Below are positions 8,303-52,814 of a stretch of DNA of 64,000 bases, piece by piece (position 1 is the first letter of the stretch; every line of letters starts with the position of its first letter). This stretch comes from Candidatus Peribacteraceae bacterium (GTDB lineage Bacteria; Patescibacteriota; Gracilibacteria; Peribacterales; Peribacteraceae): assembly GCA_028703835.1 (NCBI GenBank), contig JAQVMB010000005.1, forward strand, positions 1 to 64,000, read 5' to 3'. The position numbers and the translations under genes were made by a program. Under the pieces are notes generated by a model. That model did not search any database. It was given only the letters and a program-made list of their open reading frames with translations, and was not told where the DNA came from.

Positions 8303-8779
8303 TCATTTCTTCCTCTTGGAATACTCGCACTCCTCCCCCCAGAGCCCCCTCCCCGCCTCCCGCGCCGCCTTCTCCAGCGCGTTATATTTTTCCAAGCGCG
8401 GATGGGGGAAGCTCTTGTAGCTGAACGCGTATCCCTCCGCGATCATCCGCGCGCCGATGTCCTGCCCGTCCAGCTCCACGTACCGCAGCAGGCGATCATA
8501 GTAATCGCGGTCCTCGTCGGGCTTGCGCACGATCGTGACGGTTTTTCCGGCCAGCATCTCTTTCATGTGATCGGACGCCTCCTCGCCGAAGCATTGCACG
8601 GGCTTGCTGGGATGGACCGTCTCCGGCGTGTCGATGCCGATGAAGCGCACCCGCTCCTCCTTGCCGCTCGTGAGGCGGACGATGATCGTGTCTCCGTCCG
8701 TCACGGAAGAGACCTGCACGGCGCCCGCCGGGGAGCAGGCGGAGAGGAAGAGGAGGGCGGTGAGGATGATGTGCTTCAT
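8303..8779 (-). CDS. secreted thermonuclease (SNase-like) lipoprotein
   Basis: MKHIILTALLFLSACSPAGA lipobox-like signal, then VTDGDTIIVRL...RFIGIDTPET...GRGLWG (SNase motifs). Confidence 0.9.
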   Translation of the reverse strand: MKHIILTALLFLSACSPAGAVQVSSVTDGDTIIVRLTSGKEERVRFIGIDTPETVHPSKPVQCFGEEASDHMKEMLAGKTVTIVRKPDEDRDYYDRLLRYVELDGQDIGARMIAEGYAFSYKSFPHPRLEKYNALEKAAREAGRGLWGEECEYSKRKK

Positions 8780-9056
8780 GCCGCCAGTATAGAAACGATC
8801 GGAACCGGCAGGAGAGCATGGGGAACACACAAATACCGTGACGTCGTGCTTTGGGCTTCGTGACGGGGAAATGTAGGTTCTATGAGGTAATGGAGCGCCA
8901 AGGAAAATCCCAAACCCCAAGGAGTCAAATCCCAAGGAAATCCCAAATCTCAAATCCAGAATCTCAGAAGAGGCTTCTCAACAGCGCTTCAAATCTTGAA
9001 TCAATTGGATTTGGGTCTTTCTTGGTTATTGGAGCTTGAGATTTGGGGCTTTCCCC

Positions 9057-12000
9057 TCAGGCTGCTTCCACTTCTTCCTCAGCCTTCACTTTTTCCTTCG
9101 CCTTCACTTTTTCCCGCTTGAGCATGGCCACTTCGTCCGTGAGCTCTTCGAGCCAATGCCTGCCCTTCGCGCGCTGGACGAGGATGGCTTCCGCAATCCG
9201 CAGCGTCTGTCCGCTGATCTTCCACTGGCTGTTCACGCGCAGGAGCTGCATGATTTCCTTCGCCGTCACGCGGTCACTCAACGTGAGCACAATTTCAGCA
9301 TCTCTCCTGCCGGCCGTAGCTCCCGAAGGGAGCGAAGGCTGGTCGGATTTGACACGCACCACCCCCCCCTCCCTGCATGCCATCTTCAGCCGCAGGACGC
9401 GGAAAAGGTTCTCCACCTGCTCCGGCGGTTCGCCGTACTCATCGCGAAGGTCGGCTTCGAACTCCTGGAGGATCGCGATCTCCTCGCTACCGGCGAGCTT
9501 CTGGTACACGGAGATTTTTTCTTGGGAATCGGGGATGTAGAACGACGGGATGAATGCCTCCACGGACACCTGGATCTCCGTCTGCACCTCCACCTCTTCC
9601 GCCTCCTTCGCCCCGCCCTTCAGCTCGTCCACGGCATGCTTGAGCATGCGCAAGTAGTGGCTGACGCCCACGGTCTGCATGGTGCCCGATTGGCTCGCGC
9701 CGAGGATCTCGCCCGCGCCGCGGATCTCCAGGTCGCGCATGGCCACCTGGAAGCCGGAGCCGAGCTCGCAGGCCTCCACAATGGCCTTCAGGCGCTTCTT
9801 GGCGTCGTCCTTCAGTTTCTGGGTGTGGTACAGGAAATAGGCGAACGCCTGCAATTTACTGCGGCCGACGCGCCCGCGAAGCTGGTAGAGCTGCGCGAGC
9901 CCGAACCGTTCCGCTTCGTTGACGATGAGCGTATTGGCGCGGGGCAGGTCGATACCGTTCTCGATGATAGTGGACGACACGAGGACGTCGCACTTCCCCT
10001 CCTTGAACGACAGGATGCGCTCCTCCAGCTTGTCCGGCGGCAGCTGCCCGTGCCCCACCACGAACGTCGCGCTGGGAATGAGCCGACGCAGCTTGTCGGC
10101 GAACGCATCGATGGTCTCCACGCGGTTGTGGAGGACGAAGCACTGCCCGCCCCGTTTGACCTCGGCCATGATGGCTTGGCGGACCAGCTCGTCGGAGTAC
10201 TTGCGCACCTCGGTAATGATAGGGAGGCGGCCGGGAGGGGGGGTGGTGATGGTGGTGATGTCGCGCAATTTGTGGAGACCCAGGTTGAGCGTGCGGGGGA
10301 TGGGGGTGGCCGTGAGCGTCAGGATGTCCACGTTCGCGCGCATCTCCTTGAATTTCTCCTTCTGCTTCACGCCGAACCGCTGCTCCTCGTCGATGACCAC
10401 CAGTCCCAGATTGAAGAACTTCACGTCATCCTGGAGTAAGCGGTGCGTCCCCACGATGATGTCCACATCCCCCTTCCGCAGTTTTTCCAACGTCACTTTC
10501 TGCTCGGCGGCGGACCGGAACCGGCTGAGCATATCCACACGAACCCCGAAGCCCTTCATACGTTCCTGAAAATTGCGGTAGTGCTGGTCGGCCAGGATGG
10601 TGATGGGCGCGATGACGGCCACCTGCCTCCCCCCCTGCACGGCCTTGAACGCCGCGCGCATGGCCACTTCCGTCTTCCCGAAACCCACGTCTCCGCAGAT
10701 GAGGCGGTCCATGGGATGCTCGCTCTCCATATCCTTCTTCAAGTCCGCGATGGCCGCGCGCTGTCCGGGCGTCTCTTCGTAGGGGAACGCCTCATCGAAC
10801 TTGCGCTGCTTCTCCGTGTCTTCATTGAAAGAATGCCCCCGGCTCCGCGCGCGCTTGGCGTACAGGTTCAGCAGTTCCTTCGCGATCAGCTTCGTCTCTT
10901 CCCGCATCTTCTCCGTCACGCGCTTCCACTCCACCGTCCCGAGACGCGTGAGCACCGGCTCCTCGCCTTCCTCATGCACGAACTTGCTGAGCTTGTCCGC
11001 TTGGTCGACCGGGACGAAGAGCTTGTCCCCGCCCGCGTAGCTGATCTCCAGATACTCGCGGAAAATATCGTCGATCGCCTTTTGCGTCATGCCCTCGAAG
11101 TGCCCGATGCCGTGGTCCATGTGCACCACGTAATCTCCCGCCTGCAGCGACGTGATGAAGTCGAGGGCGAGCTTCGCGACGCCGCGCTGCTTGCCCGCTT
11201 TCTTGAGCGTGAAAATCTCGCGGTCCGTGAGGAGCGCGCATTTCAAATCCGGGTTCTGGAGGGAGTGCGGGAGCAGGTCGTCCTCCGTCGCGGGGATGAG
11301 GGTCACGGCGCCGGGACGATGATCCTCTTTGAGAACGGGAATGTGCTCCTCCTTCAGAATGCCGGCCAACTCATCCACCCGCTTCGTAACGATGAGCAGC
11401 GTCCACGCTTGCGTCAGCTTGTCGCGGACGTCGTTGAGGAAATCCGTCAGGGTATAGAACTTGAGGACGGAGAGGTAACGCAGGTGGGCATGGTTGGCCG
11501 ACGCTTCCGGGAAAGCTGTGAAACTCAATACCTGTGGAGCGGGCATTCCTGCCCGCGGGTCAATGCTGATGTCATCCTGGTCATCCAAGACGAGGAGGGA
11601 CTGCGCGGGCAGCTGTTCCGTCAGCGCCTGCGTGCGCTCAAATGTGGCGGGGAAGATATCCAACTTCTTGCCGGCCGGCGTCGTCTTCGACAGGTCTGCG
11701 GCATCGACGGCAAGGATCATCTGCACCTTGTCGAAATCAAAAGAGATGCGGTACGGATGCGGCGATTGGATGGGATAGATGTCGAGCGTGTCCCCGATGC
11801 GCCGGTACTCGCCGGGGCTGAGGTACAGGTCCGTCCCGTGGGCGTATCCGCGCTCGATCAGCTGCTCCACGAACTGTGTGAACGGCAGGTCCTCCCCCTC
11901 TTTCAGCGTCACTTTCTTCTTTGTGATTTCCGCAAAAGAGGGAAATGCCCCGTCCCATGTGGCACGGTCGCAGAGATATACGCGCCGGCCGTCCAGGTCA

Positions 12001-12326
12001 TCCCTTCCTTCCTGCATATACGCCAAAAATGTCTGTAGATGCGCCGGGATGATGGCTCCTTCATTATCACGAACGGGATGCAACACCACCGCTTCCTGCT
12101 CGAAGAACCGCAGCCAGTGCTGCAGCGCCTCCACCCCGCCGTCATTCTGCGTGAGCAGCAATGTGGTCTGCGGATGGAACGAAAGAAGATGGCTCAAAAG
12201 GAGGGCTTTTGCCGTCTCGTTCGATGTGCCGGAGATGACGAGGGCATGCTTCGCCTTCAGGAGATCAGAAAGCTCCTGATGGGTGTTGTCCCCGAGTAAG
12301 AGTGAAGGTTTCATCCTGTAAACCAA
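9057..12326 (-). CDS. mfd: transcription-repair coupling factor
   Basis: [84 protein letters not shown]. Confidence 0.97.
   Translation of the reverse strand: [1089 protein letters not shown]
11536..11557. repeat. REP-like hairpin inside mfd
   Basis: GGAGCGGGCATTCCTGCCCGCG, encodes part of [10 protein letters not shown] in Mfd. Confidence 0.9.
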
Positions 12327-34735: not shown

Positions 34736-34847
34736 GGGAGATGGCATACTTGCATCTGGGATCAGATATTCATGCAAATGGAGCAGGTATTTCTACACAT
34801 GGGAGCAGGCATTCTGCCCATTCGGGAGCAGGCATTCCTGCCTGCGG
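34736..34847. repeat. degenerate tandem REP-like units next to RAYT
   Basis: About five units of 21-24 nt: GGGAGATGGCATACTTGCATCT / GGGATCAGATATTCATGCAAAT / GGAGCAGGTATTTCTACACAT / GGGAGCAGGCATTCTGCCCATTC / GGGAGCAGGCATTCCTGCCTGCGG. Confidence 0.7.
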
Positions 34848-34848
34848 C

Positions 34849-35283
34849 TTAGCATTCCAAAGAACTGACATCCCACTTCCCACAGGCGGAAGAGAAGGGA
34901 TATTGCTCAGGTTTTTTCACAAGCCCCGCCTTGACCGGATTGAAGTGGATGTATCTCAAAGTTGCATGGCCGTTCCTAGGATATTTCATATGGAAGCGGG
35001 ATTGCCAGAAAGGGCCTCTCCCGATATTCAGGCTCGTTCCCTGCTTGAACATCCTCATGATGCGGGAAATGGATTCGGGGGCAGGGACTTTGATCAAGAA
35101 ATGACAGTGGTCGGGCATGATGCAAAAACCATAGAGGGAAAAGGGATGAAGCTGTTGGACACGATAGAGAGTGTCGATGGCTTCCCGGGCACAGGGCGGT
35201 TCTTCAAAGACGGGGATCCGATAGTGGACATTGGTGGTGATGAACATCAAGGATTCGTTCTGAAAATAATGTCGCTGGAACAT
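34849..35283 (-). CDS. REP-associated tyrosine transposase (RAYT, Y1 family)
   Basis: GFCIMPDHCHFLIKVP (HUH) and RYIHFNPVKAGLVKKPEQYPFSSA. Confidence 0.92.
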   Translation of the reverse strand: MFQRHYFQNESLMFITTNVHYRIPVFEEPPCAREAIDTLYRVQQLHPFSLYGFCIMPDHCHFLIKVPAPESISRIMRMFKQGTSLNIGRGPFWQSRFHMKYPRNGHATLRYIHFNPVKAGLVKKPEQYPFSSACGKWDVSSLEC

Positions 35284-35305
35284 GGATGTATTGTTGTTTG
35301 TGTAT

Positions 35306-35327
35306 CGCGGGCAGGAATGCCCGCTCC
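35306..35327. repeat. REP-like hairpin (GGAGCGGGCATTCCTGCCCGCG family)
   Basis: Reverse complement identical over 22 nt to mfd-internal copy 11536..11557. Confidence 0.85.
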
Positions 35328-35404
35328 TTGTTTTCTGTTCTTGTTATCCCTTTGTTATGGCTGTGAGAAAAGGCAAAAGGGGTTCTCTCCCCCCTTGGAA
35401 CGGT

Positions 35405-52192: not shown

Positions 52193-52376
52193 AGACGCCA
52201 CGGCCAGGGGTTAATTATTGAGACGCCATGCCCCGGAACGGGCATGGCTAGAGGACAACGTTCTATGGGAGCTTGGAACGGAATACGTGGTTTATCAAAG
52301 AGGGAAAATCGAAATAGCATGGCCATCGTTGGTGTTGTTGCATCGTTGAACGAGAAGAATTTCGTACGATGGAAAC

Positions 52377-52814
52377 ATGGCCCAATATCGTACGGTGGTG
52401 AATGGCGTACCAATGATCGTGACGACGGTTACCAAATATCGAGAACCGTTCTTCGTCGATCCGGCTATTGCGCGGGAGGCGGTTGAGACGCTCTATAGGA
52501 CGAAAGCTTTGCATCCTTTTGTTCTCCATGGATTTGTCATCATGCCGGATCATTGCCACCTTCTCGTCTGCGTTCCAAAGCCGGAAACGATCAGTCGGTT
52601 CATGAATGTCTTCAAATCCGGCCTCACGTTCAATACGGGAATCCCGCAAATCTGGCAGAGGCGTTTTCACATCAAGACGGCGCGAAAAAAGGAACAAATA
52701 TTCCTTCGTTATATTCATAATAATCCCGTTGTCGCAGGGTTGGTTGAACGTCCCGAAACATACCCGTGGTCATCGGCATGTGGGAAATGGAACGTAGATC
52801 CTTTTCCTTCATAA
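52377..52814 (+). CDS. REP-associated tyrosine transposase (RAYT), second copy
   Basis: GFVIMPDHCHLLVCVP (HUH), RYIHNNPVVAGLVERPETYPWSSA. Confidence 0.92.
   Translation: MAQYRTVVNGVPMIVTTVTKYREPFFVDPAIAREAVETLYRTKALHPFVLHGFVIMPDHCHLLVCVPKPETISRFMNVFKSGLTFNTGIPQIWQRRFHIKTARKKEQIFLRYIHNNPVVAGLVERPETYPWSSACGKWNVDPFPS

Follow-up and report, generated by a model that had tools for sequence, protein, structure and literature searches.

What function RAYTs have in their hosts, and at what time the hairpins known as REPs move, are questions on which light is shed by a locus of an uncultured, ultra-small CPR bacterium of Candidatus Peribacteria (genome of 1.34 Mb in 40 contigs). In a 64,000-nt stretch of this genome (the window), a RAYT gene lies between inverted REP-like hairpins and the same hairpin recurs inside mfd. 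Here we examine whether enzyme and hairpins belong together, how the hairpin foot relates to the enzyme and what the region upstream of the gene suggests about its expression.

The RAYT gene and its REP hairpins

A preliminary description, made from the sequence alone, had placed the RAYT between inverted REP hairpins. All coordinates hold and the ORF is intact. The features are as follows.

34849..35283, minus strand: RAYT (TnpA-REP) gene, 144 aa, with H59-C-H61, Y111 and W93-Q94-S95
35306..35327, minus strand: upstream REP, GGA foot, 7-bp stem and TTCC loop, containing an exact match to GGAGCGGGCATTCCTGCCCGC
34825..34847, plus strand: downstream REP, in opposite orientation to the upstream REP and ending beside the RAYT stop codon
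34736..34847, plus strand: five REP-like units in a decayed direct tandem array, spaced 21-23 nt apart
52377..52814, plus strand: second RAYT gene of the window, 145 aa

The window RAYT matched the Pfam profile Y1_Tnp (3.7e-11) and the NCBIfam profile REP_Tyr_transpos (106.6 bits, cut-off 80). With the IS200 profile it reached 27.8 bits, under the cut-off of 55, and by this measure it is thus not an IS200/IS605 transposase. In the family alignment the catalytic residues H59-C-H61 and Y111 are intact, H59, H61 and Y111 being invariant, and the WQ and YIHxNP motifs are likewise preserved. The best PDB match to the RAYT family profile was 4er8, the E. coli TnpA-REP. Sequence comparison thus argues strongly that the protein is a RAYT, a small 'domesticated' transposase of the Y1/HUH type. 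The pairing of this RAYT with cognate REPs, as first proposed, is supported by the profile matches together with the inverted flanking hairpins.

Other Y1 genes besides the window RAYT are present in the same genome. In a scan of named genomes, close relatives of the window RAYT were found in Candidatus Peribacteria/Peregrinibacteria; outside these groups the next matches drop to about 35% identity, the exceptions being a few records with generic titles and two contigs from a MAG labelled 'Kiritimatiellales'. This MAG, which carries two Peribacteria-type RAYTs (L272 and L310, on JAIPIN010000007.1 and JAIPIN010000006.1), one of them with the promoter dyad described below, is probably mis-binned or mislabelled. 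No clean empty site for the RAYT unit was found in relatives: purH and recR adjoin in some of them, with other sequence in between.

Exact matches to GGAGCGGGCATTCCTGCCCGC span 35307-35327 (minus strand) and 11536-11556 (plus strand). In the downstream REP, the copy at 34825-34845 (plus strand) differs by 2 mismatches, which compensate each other within one stem pair (G-C to A-T). Folded as ssDNA, each flanking REP has a stem of 7 bp, a TTCC loop and a GGA foot that stays unpaired; the energies are -9.6 kcal/mol for one and -8.4 kcal/mol for the other (z about -3.8). Since only GGA is unpaired, the fourth base of 'GGAG' is the first paired base. Hairpins of the GGAGCGGGCATTCCTGCCCGC type occur three times in the window when up to 3 mismatches are allowed, against 0.02 expected by chance. 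The units of the tandem array decay with distance from the RAYT gene; the last is the intact downstream REP and the third no longer folds, which suggests that parts of the RAYT/REP unit are old. Direct tandem REP arrays were also seen beside other Peribacteria RAYTs (downstream of L032, upstream of L094).

The third hairpin of the window is in mfd.

9057..12326, minus strand: mfd, intact ORF, 1089 aa, carrying a REP
11536..11557, plus strand: REP in mfd, in frame, part of PRAGMPAP (context DPRAGMPAPQ)

As had been noticed at the outset, this copy is identical over 22 nt to the upstream REP of the RAYT. The Mfd proteins of ten relatives align through the linker without these residues, so that the insert amounts to a net gain of 5 aa. 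At the DNA level the region is longer by a net 15 nt, with the whole REP in frame, and the REP insertion is unique to the window mfd among the 11 genes compared. As this copy matches the upstream REP exactly, and as the other full-length RAYTs of this genome have no flanking GGAG REPs, we infer that the window RAYT was probably the source which moved the hairpin into mfd. Intragenic REPs have been listed in uvrA, uvrB, recBCD and other genes (PMC3733652). The present one resembles them in lying inside a DNA-repair gene and in being read in frame in a linker; it differs in its foot, GGAG, and in its gene, mfd, which is not named in the main text of that paper.

Six copies of the window REP with at most 1 mismatch were counted in the genome, or seven if the stem is unconstrained, besides diverged copies. 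At about 7-10, the copy number is low and does not reach the usual description of REPs as 'abundant (usually >100)'. Elsewhere in the genome there are another three close GGAG REPs, together with several that have diverged. Two REPIN-like inverted doublets (C28:10039-10085 and C25 near 6400) have the spacer GATCC in common and, being inverted doublets of short fixed spacing, conform to the definition of a REPIN; in mfd the REP occurs singly. Some single copies are intergenic and flank genes on their 3' side. The preliminary description had mentioned neither these further REPs nor the tandem array, the second RAYT and the low copy number.

It had been proposed that the hairpin should be less abundant in relatives lacking this RAYT. 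The outcome was mixed: the RAYT-less congeners G001 and G002 have 0 copies each, RAYT-less G003 (99% complete) has 2 and G017 has 7. In G017, which is 84% complete and carries seven near-identical GGAG REPs, no RAYT was found in the assembled part; it may lie in the missing part of the genome or have been lost. Among genomes that have a close RAYT, 9 of 16 contained hairpins of the window class, versus 4 of 20 among those that lack one, so that a link between REP abundance and RAYT over the 36 genomes is only suggestive. The reversed hairpin pattern gave 0 matches in the same number of genomes.

The arrangement recurs in the family. In a strict scan, 33 of 75 distinct Peribacteria RAYTs had perfect-stem inverted REPs on both sides within 300 nt. 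At many RAYTs of these relatives the hairpins follow one formula: an NNA foot, a stem starting from GC, a loop shared within the locus and a free mid-stem. When positions six and nineteen were allowed to vary, the pattern had 67 matches in the family, and in 62 of these the two bases were complementary, compared with 32 expected; the hairpin is therefore kept as a structure.

Variation of the hairpin foot and RAYT residue 95

The REP foot is mostly GT[AG]G in known REPs, while other classes carry other tags (PMC2817692, PMC6006769, PMC3733652), and GT[AG]G is not required of all TnpA-Y1 classes (PMC6006769). The window REP, with its GGAG, departs from the canonical GT[AG]G, a departure which the preliminary description had overlooked. 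Its proposal that the foot tetranucleotide corresponds to GTAG was otherwise sustained: the feet at Peribacteria RAYTs read NNAG, mostly GGAG, AGAG and GCAG, with GTAG in the minority. The scan at these RAYTs required AG. A separate hairpin count without this constraint also favoured A before the GC stem. The retention of AG fits assays on two enzymes, for which the final two bases of GTAG proved the most important (PMC8266576). Atypical TnpA-Y1 enzymes (Bacteroidetes subclass 2.6, and class 3 with a CnGA foot; PMC6006769) similarly have flanking hairpins with unusual feet and copies elsewhere; they belong to other lineages, whereas in the Peribacteria foot only the first two bases vary and the AG of GTAG is retained.

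To relate this variation to the enzyme, we compared the feet with the RAYT tree and alignment. None of 300 shuffles followed the tree as well as the second foot base does. The strongest association with the foot was observed for RAYT position 95, directly after W-Q: S accompanies GGAG in 13 of 15 cases, P or A accompanies AGAG in 14 of 19 and R accompanies CCAG in 3 of 4, counts which ignore kinship and include only 2 well-supported independent pairs. The window RAYT, with S95 and GGAG, follows the association. As judged by comparison with 4er8, the E. coli residue aligned to position 95 adjoins W94/Q95, which have been tied to GTAG recognition (PMC6006769). With about 75 diverse RAYTs, varying REP feet and a residue that tracks them, foot recognition becomes directly testable.

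A promoter layout shared with DNA-uptake genes

Comparison of upstream sequences brought out an inverted repeat 5' of the RAYTs (the dyad), with the core GTTC[CT]A-N8-T[AG]GAAC, about 117 nt before the ATG. With the strict pattern it is found at 112-124 nt in 39 of 75 distinct Peribacteria RAYTs and is absent from about half. The exact motif GTTCCA-N8-TGGAAC occurs 0-28 times per genome, versus 0-1 for the reversed control (16 genomes). A scan starting from the motif gave 35 ATG-ORFs at 114-122 nt, versus 2.45 per 3-nt bin elsewhere. Directly upstream of the genes lies a -10 box at -12..-7, with A at -11 in 88% and T at -7 in 81% (n=59). From this position, transcription would be expected to start at or near the ATG, which implies a leaderless mRNA. 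Three genes of the window, the two RAYTs and an SNase-like nuclease gene, have this layout.

35382..35401, minus strand: dyad of the window RAYT, imperfect GTTCCAAGGGGGGAGAGAAC, 118 nt before the start codon
35290..35295, minus strand: -10-like box of the window RAYT, AACAAT at -12..-7, its A at -11 and T at -7 matching the consensus
52260..52279, plus strand: dyad of the second RAYT, perfect GTTCTATGGGAGCTTGGAAC, 117 nt before the gene
8303..8779, minus strand: SNase-like nuclease gene, with an apparent signal sequence, adjoining mfd; ATG at 8779
8877..8896, minus strand: dyad of the SNase gene, GCTCCATTACCTCATAGAAC, 117 nt before the gene
8786-8791, minus strand: -10 box of the SNase gene, TATACT, directly before the ATG

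The -10 box of the second RAYT is TACGAT, and both window RAYTs fall within the promoter group as defined here by dyad distance and -10 box. At the window RAYT the upstream REP, at about -44 to -23 of the start, lies between the dyad and the -10 box. It fills this space, and the spacing is equal to that of genes without a REP. This competence-type promoter had gone unnoticed in the preliminary description.

The genes behind the dyad include dprA, comEC, comF-like phosphoribosyltransferases, recJ-like DHH genes, recQ and lamin-tail proteins, and further IVP, GIY-YIG, additional Y1-like enzymes and an MBL-fold gene similar to the C-terminal domain of ComEC; families were assigned by Pfam, and names beyond the Pfam matches are our reading of the sequences. 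Of 29 genomes, 12 have the dyad before comEC and 9 have it before dprA; the genome of the window is among the former, with a distance of 118 nt. The strict pattern is absent from more than half of the comEC and dprA genes. In several further dprA genes the dyad is shifted by about 12 nt, or nearly one helical turn, as would suit a DNA-bound protein.

Proposed expression with DNA uptake and alternative readings

We consider it likely that this Peribacteria REPtron is expressed together with the natural-transformation regulon, at a time when ssDNA is present. Bound to the dyad some 117 nt upstream of the start codon, a putative activator would turn on comEC, comF, dprA, recJ, SNase and RAYT, along with other small nuclease-like genes, all of them through leaderless -10 promoters. 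Uptake and recombination would supply single-stranded DNA, in which REPs can fold, and the RAYT, through its H-C-H motif and Y111, would recognise the GGA/G foot and the loop, tolerating changes in mid-stem. It would then cut at the REP and join it elsewhere; one such event may have placed the REP in frame in mfd. The role of the dyad as an activator site, the co-regulation of the RAYT with DNA-uptake genes, the cutting and moving of REPs by the RAYT and the part played by uptake ssDNA as the occasion of movement are each proposed here from comparative sequence data. Expression in competence is suggested on the ground that a RAYT made with ComEC, ComF and DprA would meet ssDNA, the form in which REPs fold. 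A bolder extension, possible although clearly less probable, is that RAYTs are a dedicated part of the Peribacteria transformation programme, that is, an ssDNA hairpin nuclease made with ComEC and DprA and acting on REPs in incoming or recombining DNA. If this were true, REPs would spread with, or mark, transforming DNA.

Compared with the gammaproteobacterial REPtron (PMC2817692; PMC8266576; 4er8), the Peribacteria system has the same type of Y1/HUH enzyme with HxH, WQ and YIxxNP motifs, a gene between two inverted hairpins and a 5' foot tetranucleotide; inverted doublets occur, and variation in the RAYT seems to go with variation in the REP. It differs in its mostly GGAG, AGAG or GCAG feet instead of GT[AG]G, in its copy number (about 7-10 versus the usual >100; PMC2817692), in its host lineage, a Candidatus Peribacteria clade, and in the competence-type promoter at half of the genes. 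Host lineage and foot are thus new for REPtrons, to which are added the low copy number and the promoter layout common to DNA-uptake genes; the promoter is the surprising part and can be tested. A layout shared with comEC and dprA would provide a first concrete answer to the question of when REPs move, and would set RAYTs beside IVP, GIY-YIG, SNase and other Y1 enzymes in an apparent DNA-uptake regulon of uncultured CPR bacteria. CPR bacteria have a conserved DNA-uptake set of ComEC, ComF and DprA, and Saccharibacteria require comEC for transformation (PMC10633639). The Peribacteria genes share this set; in the passages considered, which concern another lineage, neither a regulatory site nor a RAYT is described. 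The literature searched (subscription papers and preprints were outside its scope) contained neither REP/RAYT elements in CPR nor a link between RAYT and competence.

Two other readings of the locus are rather unlikely. According to the first, the RAYT/REP unit is decaying and has no current link to competence, the dyad being a degenerate remnant and the REPs old copies. The decayed downstream array, the imperfect dyad of the window RAYT, the very low REP copy number and the persistence of REPs in a RAYT-less congener are consistent with this; however, the RAYT ORF and its catalytic residues are intact, the mfd copy equals the upstream REP over 22 nt, dyad spacing and -10 position fit the group consensus, and the second RAYT has a perfect dyad. 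According to the second, likewise improbable, genes with the dyad form a general regulon for DNA repair/recombination or of SOS-like type, or simply belong to a general promoter class, with the RAYT as one of many members. Some dyad sites indeed precede genes of no assigned function, and recQ, IVP and GIY-YIG are not classical com genes. On the other hand, exact sites number at most 28 per genome, the dyad is rare before recA (2 of 28 genomes, against the comEC and dprA frequencies given above), and comEC, comF, dprA, recJ and SNase jointly indicate DNA uptake.

It is very unlikely that the dyad is a terminator or RNA leader hairpin instead of a DNA-binding site: a T-rich stretch often lies 3' of the inverted repeat, but its distance to the ATG is fixed across many unrelated genes. 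A terminator of the preceding gene was rejected in view of this fixed distance and of the shift of about 12 nt in the displaced dprA copies, and an RNA leader in view of the position of the -10 box downstream of the dyad. Least probable of all is the idea that the flanking hairpins are terminators or structural elements unrelated to the RAYT and that the mfd match is coincidental, since the location of some single copies 3' of genes is outweighed by the chance expectation of 0.02 in the window, the recurrence of inverted placement at many RAYTs with locus-specific loops, the absence of a U-tract directly after the hairpin at the window RAYT and the association of the foot with residue 95.

Some further observations concern the genes behind the dyad. 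The promoter layout was seen at 23S_rRNA_IVP / four-helix-bundle genes (L140, L155, L173, L174, L204, L209, L212, L221), and some such dyad genes have a bAvd-like match. In small GIY-YIG nuclease genes (L158, L159, L189, L208) the dyad lies 117-121 nt before the ATG; in the ssb-like genes L154 and L175 it is present at a longer distance from the start codon. The comEC gene of the window genome is split over two contig ends, C6 and C7 (L360, L361). The PF03772 (comEC) matches of five relatives (L336, L349, L350, L353, L357) contain one in-frame stop codon, which may reflect a frameshift, decay or an assembly error. Upstream of the RAYTs, the consensus behind the dyad itself (+23..+47 from the start of the inverted repeat) has a T-rich stretch, bases resembling GGCTT and the run AAGCC(A)AAAA, which may form another inverted repeat, weaker than the first.
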